Made by a program: the position numbers and the translations under genes
DNA from: Dysgonomonadaceae bacterium zrk40
GTDB taxonomy: Bacteria; Bacteroidota; Bacteroidia; Bacteroidales; Dysgonomonadaceae
DNA length: 64,000 bases
Direction: 5' to 3'
Assembly: GCA_016916535.1 (NCBI GenBank)
Contig: CP070276.1
Location: 1,860,001 to 1,924,000, forward strand
Notes under the pieces: generated by a model
What the model saw: the letters and a program-made list of their open reading frames with translations, nothing else
The model's database searches: none
What the model was told of the DNA's origin: nothing
Part shown: positions 3,091 to 7,310 of the stretch, one piece after another
Layout: the number at the start of each line of letters is the position of its first letter
Position numbering within the stretch: position 1 is the stretch's first letter

Positions 3091-3120
3091 TTTGTGTATT
3101 CGAAAAATGTTGTACATTTG
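3091..3120 (+). promoter_or_regulatory. Promoter of the aromatic amino acid operon
   Basis: TTTG at 3091-3094 and TACATTTG at 3113-3120 match both Bacteroidota sigma elements (-33 TTTG, -7 TAnnTTTG) with 18 bases between them. Transcription would start around 3125-3130, giving a leader of about 190 bases before pheA. Confidence 0.7.
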
Positions 3121-3148
3121 TGCCCTATCACAATGAAAAGATAACAAA

Positions 3149-3205
3149 GTGAACAGTTCTTCTTTTGCATATTCATTCTGGTTTTACTTTTATTTTAGCA
3201 GGTAA
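3149..3205 (+). CDS. Phe/Tyr/Trp-rich leader peptide of the pheA attenuator
   Basis: An 18-residue frame, GTG 3149 to TAA 3203-3205, reads MNSSSFAYSFWFYFYFSR. Ten of 18 residues are aromatic, and residues 10-16 (FWFYFYF) are all aromatic in a row. An in-frame TGA at 3134-3136 leaves little room for another start. It begins about 20 bases after the predicted transcript start and ends one base before a segment (3207-3218) able to pair with the left arm of the following terminator. This is the layout of a leader peptide whose translation senses charged aromatic tRNAs. GTG initiation is inferred; there is no ATG in frame. Confidence 0.75.
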   Translation: MNSSSFAYSFWFYFYFSR

Positions 3206-3206
3206 A

Positions 3207-3269
3207 GGCAGGATTTTTATGTAAAATGAGAAGAAATTAAAAGTCATATCAGATAACAAAAATCCTGTC
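3207..3269 (+). promoter_or_regulatory. Antiterminator of the pheA attenuator
   Basis: Bases 3207-3218 (GGCAGGATTTTT) pair with 3258-3269 (AAAAATCCTGTC) over 12 bp with one G-U. The second segment is also the left arm of the terminator at 3258-3291, so the two structures exclude each other. A ribosome stalled on the aromatic codons (3164-3196) would leave 3207-3218 free to form the antiterminator. One that reaches the stop codon would mask it. Confidence 0.75.
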
Positions 3270-3291
3270 GATTACACGATGGGATTTTTTT
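3258..3291 (+). terminator. Attenuator terminator directly before pheA
   Basis: A 13-bp stem (3258-3270 with 3277-3289, two G-U pairs), 6-base loop ATTACA, then a run of seven T (3285-3291). It lies 27 bases before the pheA start, where a terminator only makes sense as a regulatory device. Confidence 0.82.
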
Positions 3292-3318
3292 ATGACTATG
3301 TGGCAAATTACAAAAGAA

Positions 3319-4167
3319 ATGAAAAGAGTTGCTATTCAAGGAGGGCCGGGAGCCTATCATGAGATTGCCGCACGTGATTATTTCAAGTGCGAAGAGCTGG
3401 AGATCGTTCCCTGCCAGACATTCCGTGATATTTTCAGGGAAGCGGAGAAGGATCCGCAACTGATTGGGGTGATGGCCATCGAGAATACCATTGCCGGGAG
3501 CCTTCTGCCCAATCATGATTTGTTGAAACAACACCATCTCCGTATTGCAGGGGAGCATAAACTTCGAATCACACATACCTTGGCAGCCCTTCCCGGCACC
3601 ACCCTTGATGAGATTGGAGAGGTGATGTCACACCCCATGGCGTTGATGCAGTGTGAGGAGTTTTTGGAGAGATTGCCCGGGGTGAAGATCGTGGAGCATG
3701 ATGACACCGCCCTTGCAGCCAAAGAGATTCGTGAGCGGGAGATGAAAGGCACTGCCACCATCTGCAGCAGGCTGGCAGCGGAGAAGTATGGTCTGGAGAT
3801 CCTGGCCCATGGAATTGAAACAAACAAACGCAATTTCACTCGTTTCTTTATCCTGGCACGTGAGGAGATGCTTCGTGAGGTGCAGAAGGATAACCATATC
3901 AACAAATCGTCGCTGGTGTTTGTCTTGCCACACAACGAAGGATCACTCTCGAAGGTGCTGTCGGTGCTCTCCTTCTATGGGATCAACCTGACCCGTATCC
4001 AGTCGCTGCCCATCATTGGCAGTGAGTGGGAGTACCAGTTTTATGTGGATCTCACCTTTACCGATTATCAGCGCTACCAACAGTCGATCGATGCCATCAC
4101 TCCGCTGATCAGTAAACTGAAGTTGTTGGGCGAGTACAGGGAGGAGATGAATGCCGATGAACAGTAA
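3319..4167 (+). CDS. pheA: Prephenate dehydratase with ACT domain
   Basis: Converts prephenate to phenylpyruvate, the committed step to phenylalanine. It has 282 residues, normal for a stand-alone dehydratase, with no chorismate mutase domain (that activity is fused to the DAHP synthase downstream). The catalytic TRF motif is at 174-176 (NFTRFF). A C-terminal ACT domain (about 198-275) should bind phenylalanine. Its two effector motifs read GSLSKVL and QSLP, where E. coli-type enzymes have GALxxxL and ESRP. The start is put at ATG 3319 (MKRVAIQG) rather than 3292, because the latter abuts the attenuator T-run. First gene of a four-gene operon. Confidence 0.93.
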   Translation: MKRVAIQGGPGAYHEIAARDYFKCEELEIVPCQTFRDIFREAEKDPQLIGVMAIENTIAGSLLPNHDLLKQHHLRIAGEHKLRITHTLAALPGTTLDEIGEVMSHPMALMQCEEFLERLPGVKIVEHDDTALAAKEIREREMKGTATICSRLAAEKYGLEILAHGIETNKRNFTRFFILAREEMLREVQKDNHINKSSLVFVLPHNEGSLSKVLSVLSFYGINLTRIQSLPIIGSEWEYQFYVDLTFTDYQRYQQSIDAITPLISKLKLLGEYREEMNADEQ

Positions 4168-4176
4168 CTGAATGAA

Positions 4177-5358
4177 ATGAAAACTACAATGAAGATGATT
4201 GAACCTGCAGCACATATCAAGTCAATAGAAGAATACTATTTCTCGGTGAAACTGGCTGAAGTGGCCCGTATGAATGCCGAAGGTAAAAACGTGATCAGTC
4301 TGGCGGTGGGAGCACCCGATCGGATGCCGTCGCAGGAGACCATTGAAATGCTTTGCGATACAGCCCGCCTGTCCGATGTGCATGCCTACCAGCCATATAC
4401 CGGTATCCCCGAGTTGCGTAAAGCATATGCCGACTGGTACAAGCGTATCTATGACGTCACCCTGACGCCTGCTGAGGTATTGCCGTTGATAGGCTCCAAG
4501 GAGGGGATCCTGCATGTCTCGATGACCTTCCTGAACTTCGGAGATACGGTGCTGGTCCCCAATCCCGGTTATCCCACATACCGATCCGTATCGCAACTTT
4601 TGCGGGCAGAGGTGATGGAGTATGACCTGCTGGAGGAGAAGGGATGGGAGCCTGACTTCGAGGCTCTGGAAAAGATAGACTTGAGCCGGGTGAAGCTGAT
4701 GTGGGTAAACTACCCGAACATGCCTACTGGTGCCAATGCATCGCAAGAGCTGTTTGAGAAGCTGGTGGCCTTTGGCAAGAAGCATCAGATCGTGATTTGT
4801 CACGACAATCCCTACAGTTTCATTTTGAACGACCACCCGATGAGCATCCTCTCTGTACCGGGAGCAAAGGAGATTTGTATCGAGCTCAACTCGCTAAGCA
4901 AGTCGCATAACATGTCGGGATGGCGCATGGGGATGCTGGCATCCAATCCTCAATTCGTTCAGTGGGTACTCAAGGCTAAGAGCAACATCGACAGCGGTCA
5001 GTTCAAACCGATGCAGCTGGCAACGGTGGCTGCTCTGTCGAACAGTGATGAGTGGCATGCCGGGATGAACCTGATCTATCGTGAACGACGCGACTGGGCC
5101 GAGAAGATCATGCATCTGCTTGGCTGTAGCTACGATTCTCGGCAGGTGGGATTGTTTGTGTGGGGCAAGCTGCCCGCAGAGGTGTCGGGTAGTGAAAAAC
5201 TTGTGAATGAACTGCTTGAAAAGGCGCGTGTGTTTCTTACCCCTGGCTTTATCTTCGGCAGCAACGGTGAACGTTTTATCCGCATCTCGTTGGGAGCCTC
5301 AGTTGAGAAGCTGCAGGAGGCTTACATGCGGATTGAGGAATATATGGGGAATAGCTGA
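4177..5358 (+). CDS. Class I/II PLP aminotransferase, probable aromatic aminotransferase
   Basis: PLP-dependent fold-type I aminotransferase of 393 residues. The Schiff-base lysine is K242 in SLSKSHNMSGWRMG; PNPGYPTY (128-135) and NYPNMPTGA (178-186) are cofactor and substrate loops. It lies 9 bases after pheA and before the DAHP synthase-chorismate mutase gene. That position suggests it transaminates phenylpyruvate and 4-hydroxyphenylpyruvate, the last step to Phe and Tyr. By sequence alone it resembles the aspartate/LL-diaminopimelate aminotransferase group, so a diaminopimelate or broad role cannot be excluded. Confidence 0.85.
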   Translation: MKTTMKMIEPAAHIKSIEEYYFSVKLAEVARMNAEGKNVISLAVGAPDRMPSQETIEMLCDTARLSDVHAYQPYTGIPELRKAYADWYKRIYDVTLTPAEVLPLIGSKEGILHVSMTFLNFGDTVLVPNPGYPTYRSVSQLLRAEVMEYDLLEEKGWEPDFEALEKIDLSRVKLMWVNYPNMPTGANASQELFEKLVAFGKKHQIVICHDNPYSFILNDHPMSILSVPGAKEICIELNSLSKSHNMSGWRMGMLASNPQFVQWVLKAKSNIDSGQFKPMQLATVAALSNSDEWHAGMNLIYRERRDWAEKIMHLLGCSYDSRQVGLFVWGKLPAEVSGSEKLVNELLEKARVFLTPGFIFGSNGERFIRISLGASVEKLQEAYMRIEEYMGNS

Positions 5359-5448: not shown

Positions 5449-6519
5449 ATGGAATTCGAATCAATTTTATTGCCGGGCATTGACGCGAAGAGACCGCTGG
5501 TGATTGCGGGGCCCTGCAGTGCCGAGACAGAAGAACAGGTGATGACCACCGCGCGCCAGCTGGCGGCAGTGGGAGTGAAGATCTACCGCGCAGGGGTATG
5601 GAAACCCCGCACAAAGCCAGGTGGTTTTGAGGGGATCGGTAGTCCGGCGCTGAAATGGATGATGCAGGCGGAAAAGGAGACTGGCATGTACATGGCCACC
5701 GAGGTGGCTACGGAGAAACATGTCTATGAGGCATTGAAGTATGGTGTAGATATACTTTGGATAGGGGCACGCACGGCTGCCAACCCTTTTGCAGTGCAGG
5801 AAATTGCAGATACCCTCAAAGGAGTGGATATCCCCATCCTGATCAAGAATCCGGTGAATCCCGACCTGGAGCTCTGGATCGGTGCACTGGAGCGACTCTA
5901 CAACGCAGGTATCCGCAAGCTGGGAGTGATACACCGTGGATTCAGCACTACCGACAAGACCATATACCGCAATCTGCCGCAATGGCACATTCCCATCGAG
6001 TTGAAACGGCGTTTTCCCACTTTGCCGATAATCTGCGACCCAAGTCATATCGGCGGCGACCGCAACCTGATCTTCAAAATCAGTCAACAGGCGATGGATC
6101 TCAACTACGCGGGATTGATCATCGAATCGCATTGTTCCCCCGACGAGGCGTGGAGCGATAAGGCTCAACAGGTCACTCCGGCTGCACTGAAGGAGATTCT
6201 CGATACCATCGTAATCCGTGATACGGTGCAGACGACTGAAGATCTCTCGGTGTTGCGCGACCAGATAGATGAACTCGACAATGACCTGTTGCAGCTTTTG
6301 GCAAAGCGTATGCGTGTGTCAAGAGAGATCGGCCAGTACAAGCTGGAGCATGACATGCCAATCCTGCAGACGCAGCGCTACGATCAGATCCTGACCGACC
6401 GTGCCTATCAGGGTGAACGTCTGGAGATGTCGGGCGACTTCGTGAAGAAGGTTCTGGAGTCGATCCATTCCGAGTCGGTCCGTCAGCAGATGGTGGTGAT
6501 GGAGAGAGCGAAGAAATAA
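5449..6519 (+). CDS. DAHP synthase fused to chorismate mutase (type II)
   Basis: Bifunctional enzyme of 356 residues. Residues 1-260 form a class I beta/KDO8P-like DAHP synthase joining phosphoenolpyruvate and erythrose 4-phosphate (GPCSAE at 21-26, KPRTKPGGFEG at 52-62, later IIESHCSPDEAWSDKAQQ). Residues 265-356 form an AroQ-type chorismate mutase helix bundle (DQIDELDNDLLQLLAKRM). Entry to the shikimate pathway and the branch step to prephenate are thus on one chain, which in such fusions lets prephenate or chorismate feed back on the synthase. There are 90 non-coding bases after the aminotransferase gene, with no terminator seen in them. Confidence 0.93.
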   Translation: MEFESILLPGIDAKRPLVIAGPCSAETEEQVMTTARQLAAVGVKIYRAGVWKPRTKPGGFEGIGSPALKWMMQAEKETGMYMATEVATEKHVYEALKYGVDILWIGARTAANPFAVQEIADTLKGVDIPILIKNPVNPDLELWIGALERLYNAGIRKLGVIHRGFSTTDKTIYRNLPQWHIPIELKRRFPTLPIICDPSHIGGDRNLIFKISQQAMDLNYAGLIIESHCSPDEAWSDKAQQVTPAALKEILDTIVIRDTVQTTEDLSVLRDQIDELDNDLLQLLAKRMRVSREIGQYKLEHDMPILQTQRYDQILTDRAYQGERLEMSGDFVKKVLESIHSESVRQQMVVMERAKK

Positions 6520-6536: not shown

Positions 6537-7310
6537 ATGAAAATATTAATCCTTGGAGCCGGCAAGATGGGCTCATTCTTTGCCGATGTGCTCAGTTTCG
6601 ACCATGAGGTGGCGGTGCTCGACCCCGATCCGAAGAAGTTACGGTTCATCTACAACACGGAGCGGATGACCACCCCGCAAGAGGTGGAAGCATTCGCCCC
6701 TGAGTTGGTAATCAATGCCGCCACACTCAAATTTACGATCCCTGCTTTTGAATCGGTACTTCCCTATCTGCCGGAGACCTGTATCCTGAGCGATATCGCC
6801 TCGGTGAAAACCGGACTGGAGGAGTTTTACCGGGAGCGCACCCGCCCCTATGTCTCCACACACCCCATGTTCGGCCCCACCTTTGCCAGCCTGAACGACC
6901 TGAGCAGCCAGAGCGCCATCATTATTGCTGAGTCGTCACACCTGGGCAAAGTCTTTTTCCGTGATCTCTACCATCACCTGAAGCTGAATGTGTTCGAATA
7001 CTCCTTCCGGGAGCATGATGAAACCATCGCCTATTCGCTTTCCATCCCCTTTGCTTCTACCCTGGTGTTTGCCTCGGTGATGAAGCACCAGGATGCGCCC
7101 GGTACCACCTTCAAAAGACACATGCAGATCGCACAGGGATTGCTTTCAGAAGATGACTTCCTGCTCACCGAGATTCTCTTCAACCCTTATACACCGGGGC
7201 AGCTGACCAATATACGGGAGAAACTGAAGGAGTTGCTGGCCATTATCGAAACCAAAGACTCTGAACGAATGAAGGCCTTCTTGACGGAGGTGCGCATAAA
7301 TATTCAGTAA
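6537..7310 (+). CDS. tyrA: Prephenate dehydrogenase
   Basis: NAD(P)-dependent oxidative decarboxylation of prephenate to 4-hydroxyphenylpyruvate, the tyrosine branch. The protein has 257 residues. The dinucleotide-binding loop GAGKMG is at 7-12, and STHPMFGPTF (around 104-113) carries the conserved His-Pro-Met region of TyrA. It has no chorismate mutase or ACT domain, so any feedback control must be elsewhere. It starts 17 bases after the DAHP synthase-chorismate mutase gene and closes the operon. Confidence 0.9.
   Translation: MKILILGAGKMGSFFADVLSFDHEVAVLDPDPKKLRFIYNTERMTTPQEVEAFAPELVINAATLKFTIPAFESVLPYLPETCILSDIASVKTGLEEFYRERTRPYVSTHPMFGPTFASLNDLSSQSAIIIAESSHLGKVFFRDLYHHLKLNVFEYSFREHDETIAYSLSIPFASTLVFASVMKHQDAPGTTFKRHMQIAQGLLSEDDFLLTEILFNPYTPGQLTNIREKLKELLAIIETKDSERMKAFLTEVRINIQ

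Follow-up and report, generated by a model that had tools for sequence, protein, structure and literature searches.

Attenuation by leader peptides was worked out in enterobacteria, and the pheA and trp operons are its textbook cases. The pheA leader of E. coli has Phe codons only, and thrABC and ilvGMEDA are each preceded by one leader with codons for several end products of the operon. In Salmonella, the two ORFs of the mgtCBR leader sense different signals. Concerning the spread of such systems, a 2010 survey states that, before its own Firmicutes case, they had been known from Proteobacteria and Actinobacteria only, the atypical ermC leader apart (PMC2965389). The Bacteroid-trp RNA is listed in Table 1 of PMC2864571, a paper that also lists a pheA motif in Actinobacteria. 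For Flavobacterium psychrophilum, which belongs to the same phylum as the genome studied here, a passage of PMC9723704 mentions 'strong clues' that amino-acid operons are preceded by leader peptide attenuators, without naming any operon, and sORFs of B. thetaiotaomicron are called reminiscent of leader peptides in PMC7366714. Finally, the uORFC-13-1 motif, which precedes aroF in Acholeplasma, is described in PMC8632094.

The locus presented here lies in the 3.47 Mb genome of Dysgonomonadaceae bacterium zrk40, in a window of 64,000 nucleotides (the whole stretch analysed, G000:C1:1860001-1924000 in our numbering). The nearest named relatives of its PheA come from metagenome bins of Bacteroidales, followed by Petrimonas and Dysgonomonas. 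The leader region and the operon behind it consist of the following features, in window positions:

3091-3120, forward strand: promoter of the Bacteroides type, with the -33 element TTTG at 3091-3094 and the -7 element TACATTTG at 3113-3120
3149-3205, forward strand: leader peptide frame VNSSSFAYSFWFYFYFSR, GTG start, 18 codons, TAA stop
3157-3235, forward strand: 1:2 protector hairpin of the minimum-energy fold, inner part 3175-3189 with 3200-3214
3207-3218, forward strand: strand 2, 5' arm of the antiterminator, pairing with 3258-3269
3258-3270, forward strand: strand 3, shared arm (antiterminator 3' arm 3258-3269, terminator 5' arm 3258-3270)
3277-3291, forward strand: strand 4, 3' arm of the terminator (arm 3277-3289, T run 3285-3291)
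3319-4167, forward strand: pheA, prephenate dehydratase
4177-5358, forward strand: class I/II aminotransferase
5449-6519, forward strand: DAHP synthase fused to chorismate mutase
6537-7310, forward strand: tyrA-like prephenate dehydrogenase

The start of pheA is most likely the ATG at 3319, where the consensus of the relatives begins with MKKVAIQG. A divergent gene for an oligopeptide:H+ symporter (1406-2992) has its intergenic region in common with the pheA promoter, and a four-codon frame (ATG AAA AGA TAA, 3133-3144), different from that of the leader, is found between promoter and leader start. The promoter consensus TAnnTTTG/TTTG is quoted in PMC7366714, and among 194 distinct related regions, 157 have TAnnTTTG at most 70 nt from the start of the leader, compared with 43 of 970 mononucleotide shuffles. 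The first-pass annotation of this DNA had listed a consensus promoter, an 18-codon frame, a 12-bp antiterminator and a 13-bp terminator with seven T, the two stems excluding each other. Promoter and antiterminator (12 pairs, one G.U) are read directly from the letters, and the two stems are indeed mutually exclusive since strand 3 is common to both. The leader frame also holds, apart from its start, which is GTG where M had been written, and the terminator (13 pairs, two G.U) needs a correction of its limits, as the stem ends at 3289 and only the hairpin plus T run extends to 3291, with five of the seven T inside the stem. Phe, Tyr and Trp account for nine of the 18 leader codons. The minimum-energy fold of 3130-3300 reaches -44.9 kcal/mol (z = -6.33; none of 200 shuffles was equally good) and contains the 1:2 hairpin, which was absent from the earlier list.

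We propose, with a probability of about 0.9, that this element is a ribosome-mediated transcription attenuator through which the pheA-aminotransferase-DAHP synthase/chorismate mutase-tyrA operon would respond to the level of charged Phe- and Tyr-tRNA. When Phe and Tyr are plentiful, the ribosome would reach the stop codon and cover strand 2 (3207-3218), so that strands 3 and 4 would pair and transcription would end before pheA. Under shortage of Phe or Tyr, it would stall in the aromatic run and mask strand 1, leaving strands 2 and 3 to pair; no terminator would then form and the operon would be transcribed. If the leader carries no ribosome, the 1:2 hairpin would sequester strand 2, and termination would be the default in this genus. 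Leader translation, stalling and the change in read-through are steps that we infer. Translation-coupled attenuation had been suggested for this region before, and comparison supports it strongly through the leader frame, the changes in the stems, the stall scan and the composition of the leaders.

Aligning the regions upstream of pheA from relatives had been named as a check, and the aromatic leader proved to be conserved. A PheA match was present in 126 of the 295 genomes of the order; upstream DNA was taken for 110 of them, one of which offered only 70 bases and was left out, and 103 of the 109 loci scored carry an aromatic leader upstream of pheA (30/30 plus 73/79). A strict test, defined as leader plus scored terminator, was passed by 95 of the 109 loci and by none of 545 dinucleotide shuffles. 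Among the 14 loci failing it, eight have the leader, followed by a terminator-like hairpin that was seen by eye, is imperfect in some and was left unscored, and six (L062, L070, L071, L112, L128 and L138) showed no aromatic leader. Three of these six still have the operon behind pheA; L062, L071 and L112 have a solitary pheA with no aromatic leader found upstream. Within the family, from 88 genomes with a match, all 29 loci read have the leader, and one of 145 shuffles passes the strict test. Outside the order but in the same class, the test was passed by 12 of 21 loci, a subset of 70 matches outside the order, and by 0 of 105 shuffles. Also outside the order, L229, L236 and L237 have a different shared leader (QTYFWYYP/QTYFWFYP type) with a terminator before pheA. 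In named genomes, a set that partly overlaps the unnamed one (80 loci, two dropped for want of upstream DNA), 71 of 78 loci pass, including those of Bacteroides fragilis, B. xylanisolvens, Parabacteroides distasonis and Alistipes. The bare codon string alone is not rare, since TTYTAYTTYTAYTTY at one mismatch or fewer gave 51 genome matches (2 exact) and the reversed pattern gave 108. The 20 of these 51 loci that were read revealed no other Phe/Tyr leader, leader plus terminator being found only before pheA.

The alignment of 29 same-family relatives points to coding constraint on the leader. All 29 keep the frame, whose start is exchanged between ATG (17) and GTG (12) and whose stop varies among TAA (20), TGA (6) and TAG (3). 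Codons 12-16 vary only between TAC and TAT. A three-base periodicity is seen in the wider set, where C in 174 distinct aromatic runs occupies 526 of 1740 third positions, 165 of 1740 second positions and 24 of 1740 first positions. Of the distinct ten-residue runs, 146 out of 150 contain both Phe and Tyr.

That codon identity is sensed is best supported, as far as sequence comparison can show, by the relation between leader composition and operon content. Downstream DNA was read for 108 loci of the order (L075 and L088 were left out), with about 1.5 kb or less behind pheA in 28 of them and up to 6 kb in the others, and the proteins of the window served as tblastn queries for the genes in it. 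In 97 of the 108 loci, pheA is followed by an aminotransferase, a DAHP synthase/mutase or TyrA, or by more than one of them. The remaining 11 comprise L024 (too little DNA), three leaderless loci and seven with a leader. In these seven solitary-pheA leaders the ratio Y/(F+Y) is 0, 0, 0, 0, 0.14, 0.14 and 0.20 (mean 0.07), compared with a mean of 0.42 and a minimum of 0.11 in 94 operon leaders; Tyr-free leaders number 4/7 and 0/94, respectively. The difference has P = 1.3e-5 by locus, a value to be read with the loci not being independent and the comparison having been devised after the first solitary case was known. By family, it has P = 0.0013 (4 vs 43 families, f19 having both states), the solitary group being small with its 7 loci in 4 families.

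All seven genomes with a leader-bearing solitary pheA have a DAHP synthase match elsewhere in the genome. In five of them (G237, G028, G018, G099 and G284) a separate leader with a terminator precedes the aminotransferase or prephenate dehydrogenase gene of that detached cluster. Tyr exceeds Phe in all seven units of these split-operon leaders (L363, L364, L365, L367 and L368), two units standing in tandem in G099 and in G284. For L363 and L364, antiterminator pairing is still 0.5 with the ribosome at the stop. As for the other two genomes, no leader was found in the 394 bases between the contig end and the DAHP synthase match of G244, and the match of G038 begins at base 4 of its contig. The second DAHP synthase copies of G099 and G284 (L366, L369) lack such a leader. 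In G237, the DNA following the solitary pheA (L266) contains long and short frames on the opposite strand that look phage-like by eye, one of them being repetitive and 1256 aa long.

The mixed string of codons had been read as a possible sensor for any aromatic amino acid. This is supported for Phe and Tyr, where composition follows the operon, but not for Trp, where codon 11 varies. We consider it unlikely that codon 11 makes the switch responsive to a shortage of Trp as well, an explanation with points on both sides. Codon 11 lies inside the stall window and reads TGG in 19 of the 29 family members, but GGT in six, TAT in two, CGA in one and TTT in one, so that Gly, Tyr, Arg or Phe stands there in 10/29. 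Among runs chosen on F/Y alone (151 distinct), Trp makes up 24 of the 321 non-Phe/Tyr residues, which exceeds its usual share of proteins, yet Trp occurs in only 34 of 150 distinct runs of the wider set and is missing from 116. The DAHP synthase of the operon feeds Trp too; on the other side, the genome carries a dedicated leader for its trp operon, with two Trp codons and a terminator:

G000:C1:1500147-1500283, reverse strand: Trp leader MTNLLMNGYWWRCLQLTRS (L265), two adjacent Trp codons, terminator

By eye, the gene behind this leader reads as trpB, and Bacteroid-trp (RF01692) scores 48.4 bits there with a cut-off of 49. A contribution of Trp to the Phe/Tyr attenuator may exist in particular lineages.

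A switch made of RNA only or bound by a protein (riboswitch, T-box or RNA-binding repressor), its U-rich stretch being untranslated, seems to us highly unlikely. U-rich Phe/Tyr codons do arise easily in A+T-rich leaders, and the alternative folds form without any protein. Nevertheless, the three-base periodicity and the interchange of stop codons and of ATG with GTG speak against an untranslated stretch, Tyr codons become few or disappear where the operon stops feeding Tyr, and no Rfam family reached its gathering score anywhere in the window. A relaxed Rfam search at the element listed 16 matches, all below their gathering scores and with T-box and RF01692 absent; the enterobacterial Phe_leader (RF01859) scored 17.7 bits there (gathering score 55, E = 1.4). 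The aromatic peptide could also arrest its own ribosome by sensing free amino acid in the tunnel, as TnaC senses free Trp. The peptides are long, similar and hydrophobic, as such an arrest would have it, but their composition tracks operon content and relatives differ in how F and Y are ordered, which fits tRNA supply and not a fixed arrest sequence; we therefore consider nascent-peptide arrest very improbable.

Compensatory changes were found in both competing stems, as had been anticipated if the element is genuine. Among the 29 relatives, 99.7% of the antiterminator cells are paired (11 of the 12 pairs were scored, the last one falling on a gap) and one pair has changed on both sides, in two sequences. 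In the terminator 93.9% of the cells are paired, and two-sided changes affect two pairs (11 cells). If the partner is shifted by one to three columns, pairing falls to 37-61%. The number of cells changed on both sides was matched by 0/500 column shuffles for the terminator and by 9/500 for the antiterminator, whereas the count of two-sided pairs was reached in 159/500 and 113/500, respectively; hence the cell number is exceptional and the pair count is not. Alignment column 129 is common to both stems, and through its changes both stay paired in 29/29. The inner 1:2 stem has 90.9% of its cells paired in the 29 relatives and no two-sided change among them, so it is kept but lacks proof by covariation. 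That pheA is merely preceded by a small RNA or an ordinary terminator, involving no regulation, would account for the terminator but hardly for a conserved leader and a conserved competing antiterminator with both stems kept paired through the changes of column 129, and is very unlikely.

Returning to the ribosome-mediated attenuator, we folded the RNA ahead of the ribosome with the latter placed at each codon, its 3' edge assumed 14 nt past the first A-site base and the transcript cut before strand 4. In the window, antiterminator pairing is 0.84 at codon 2, 0.91 at codons 3-15 and 0.75 at codon 16, falling to 0.07 at codon 17 and to 0 both at codon 18 and at the stop. In silico, then, the antiterminator is free with the ribosome at the aromatic codons and blocked with it at the stop, which agrees with the earlier statement that the spacing fits the classic model. 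Without a ribosome the pairing is 0.00 because of the 1:2 hairpin. When the full transcript (end at 3300) was folded, antiterminator pairing stayed at or below 0.08 at every ribosome position, so the switch would have to work by kinetic trapping, on which known attenuators likewise rely. The scan was extended to 223 units, which are not all independent since some genomes occur twice. Pairing above 0.5 on some aromatic codon was obtained in 217 of the 223, and 129 of these 217 fall below 0.2 at the stop. A drop of more than 0.3 at the stop was also seen in 217 of the 223 units, in up to three of them because the footprint already reaches the terminator. A drop of more than 0.3 without a ribosome, the effect of the protector, occurs in 53 of 223 units only, and termination without a ribosome is thus not general. 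With shuffled spacers, a control that is not clean, pairing with strand 3 exceeded 0.5 in 218 of 456 cases, compared with 109 of 114 real ones.

Apart from single units such as that of the window, two leader-terminator units precede pheA in 19 of the 109 order loci, belonging to 11 of 49 families by the strict test (L006, L011, L015, L020, L059, L078, L085, L087, L114, L116, L118, L121-L124, L132-L134 and L136). A second leader is also present in L007, L008, L024 and L072, its terminator failing the strict test. Four tandem candidates of the same genus (L032, L039, L041 and L048) were rejected as artefacts in which the 1:2 stem had been scored as a terminator, and their units were dropped from the unit-level folding and make-up counts. 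In 20 tandem loci, one of them outside the order, first units contain 91 F and 66 Y in 200 residues and second units 99 F and 66 Y in 200. A division of Phe and Tyr sensing between the two units was considered and rejected, the F/Y make-up being the same in both. If the reading is correct, tandem units of the same make-up would multiply two terminations and steepen the response.

Taken more broadly, the loci probably represent a Bacteroidota-wide family of aromatic leader-peptide attenuators outside Rfam, whose codon make-up would evolve with operon output: mixed Phe/Tyr where both are served jointly, Phe only or nearly so with a solitary pheA, and Tyr-rich with a detached tyrA. Tandem doubling occurs in several families. 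Such an attenuator, if real, would govern how a large group of gut and anaerobic bacteria commits to making Phe and Tyr. With Tyr codons lost where the operon gave up its Tyr role, and Tyr-rich leaders before detached tyrA operons, the way in which codons set the specificity of a leader can be tested both by comparison and at the bench; the family, if real, would offer natural replicate experiments on the effect of codon order and codon number on this specificity.

Among described systems, the enterobacterial pheA leader (RF01859) follows the same logic, with a leader likewise rich in Phe codons, an antiterminator and a terminator before pheA. It differs in that Phe and Tyr codons are mixed here and the operon adds DAHP synthase/chorismate mutase and tyrA. 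Bacteroid-trp (RF01692) is also a cis-regulatory RNA of Bacteroidetes, but with Trp codons and before the trp operon. The uORFC-13-1 motif, compared by its description alone, likewise combines a short ORF containing Phe codon(s) with a terminator ahead of a DAHP synthase gene, although it belongs to another phylum and gene and is described as requiring at least one Phe residue only (PMC8632094). Leaders for several amino acids are shared with thrABC and ilvGMEDA, again likened by description alone, the pair being Phe and Tyr in our case. In Salmonella mgtCBR, two short ORFs in one leader are, in the account of PMC3641672, expected to act on stem-loops; the tandem relatives found here differ by having the same Phe/Tyr make-up in both units. 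Our literature search turned up no account of a leader before pheA in Bacteroidales, and Lopatovskaya et al. 2010, on attenuation in bacteria, may list some. The kind of attenuator is textbook, its pheA member in Bacteroidales appears to be new, and the tandem form of the relatives would be a variant of it.
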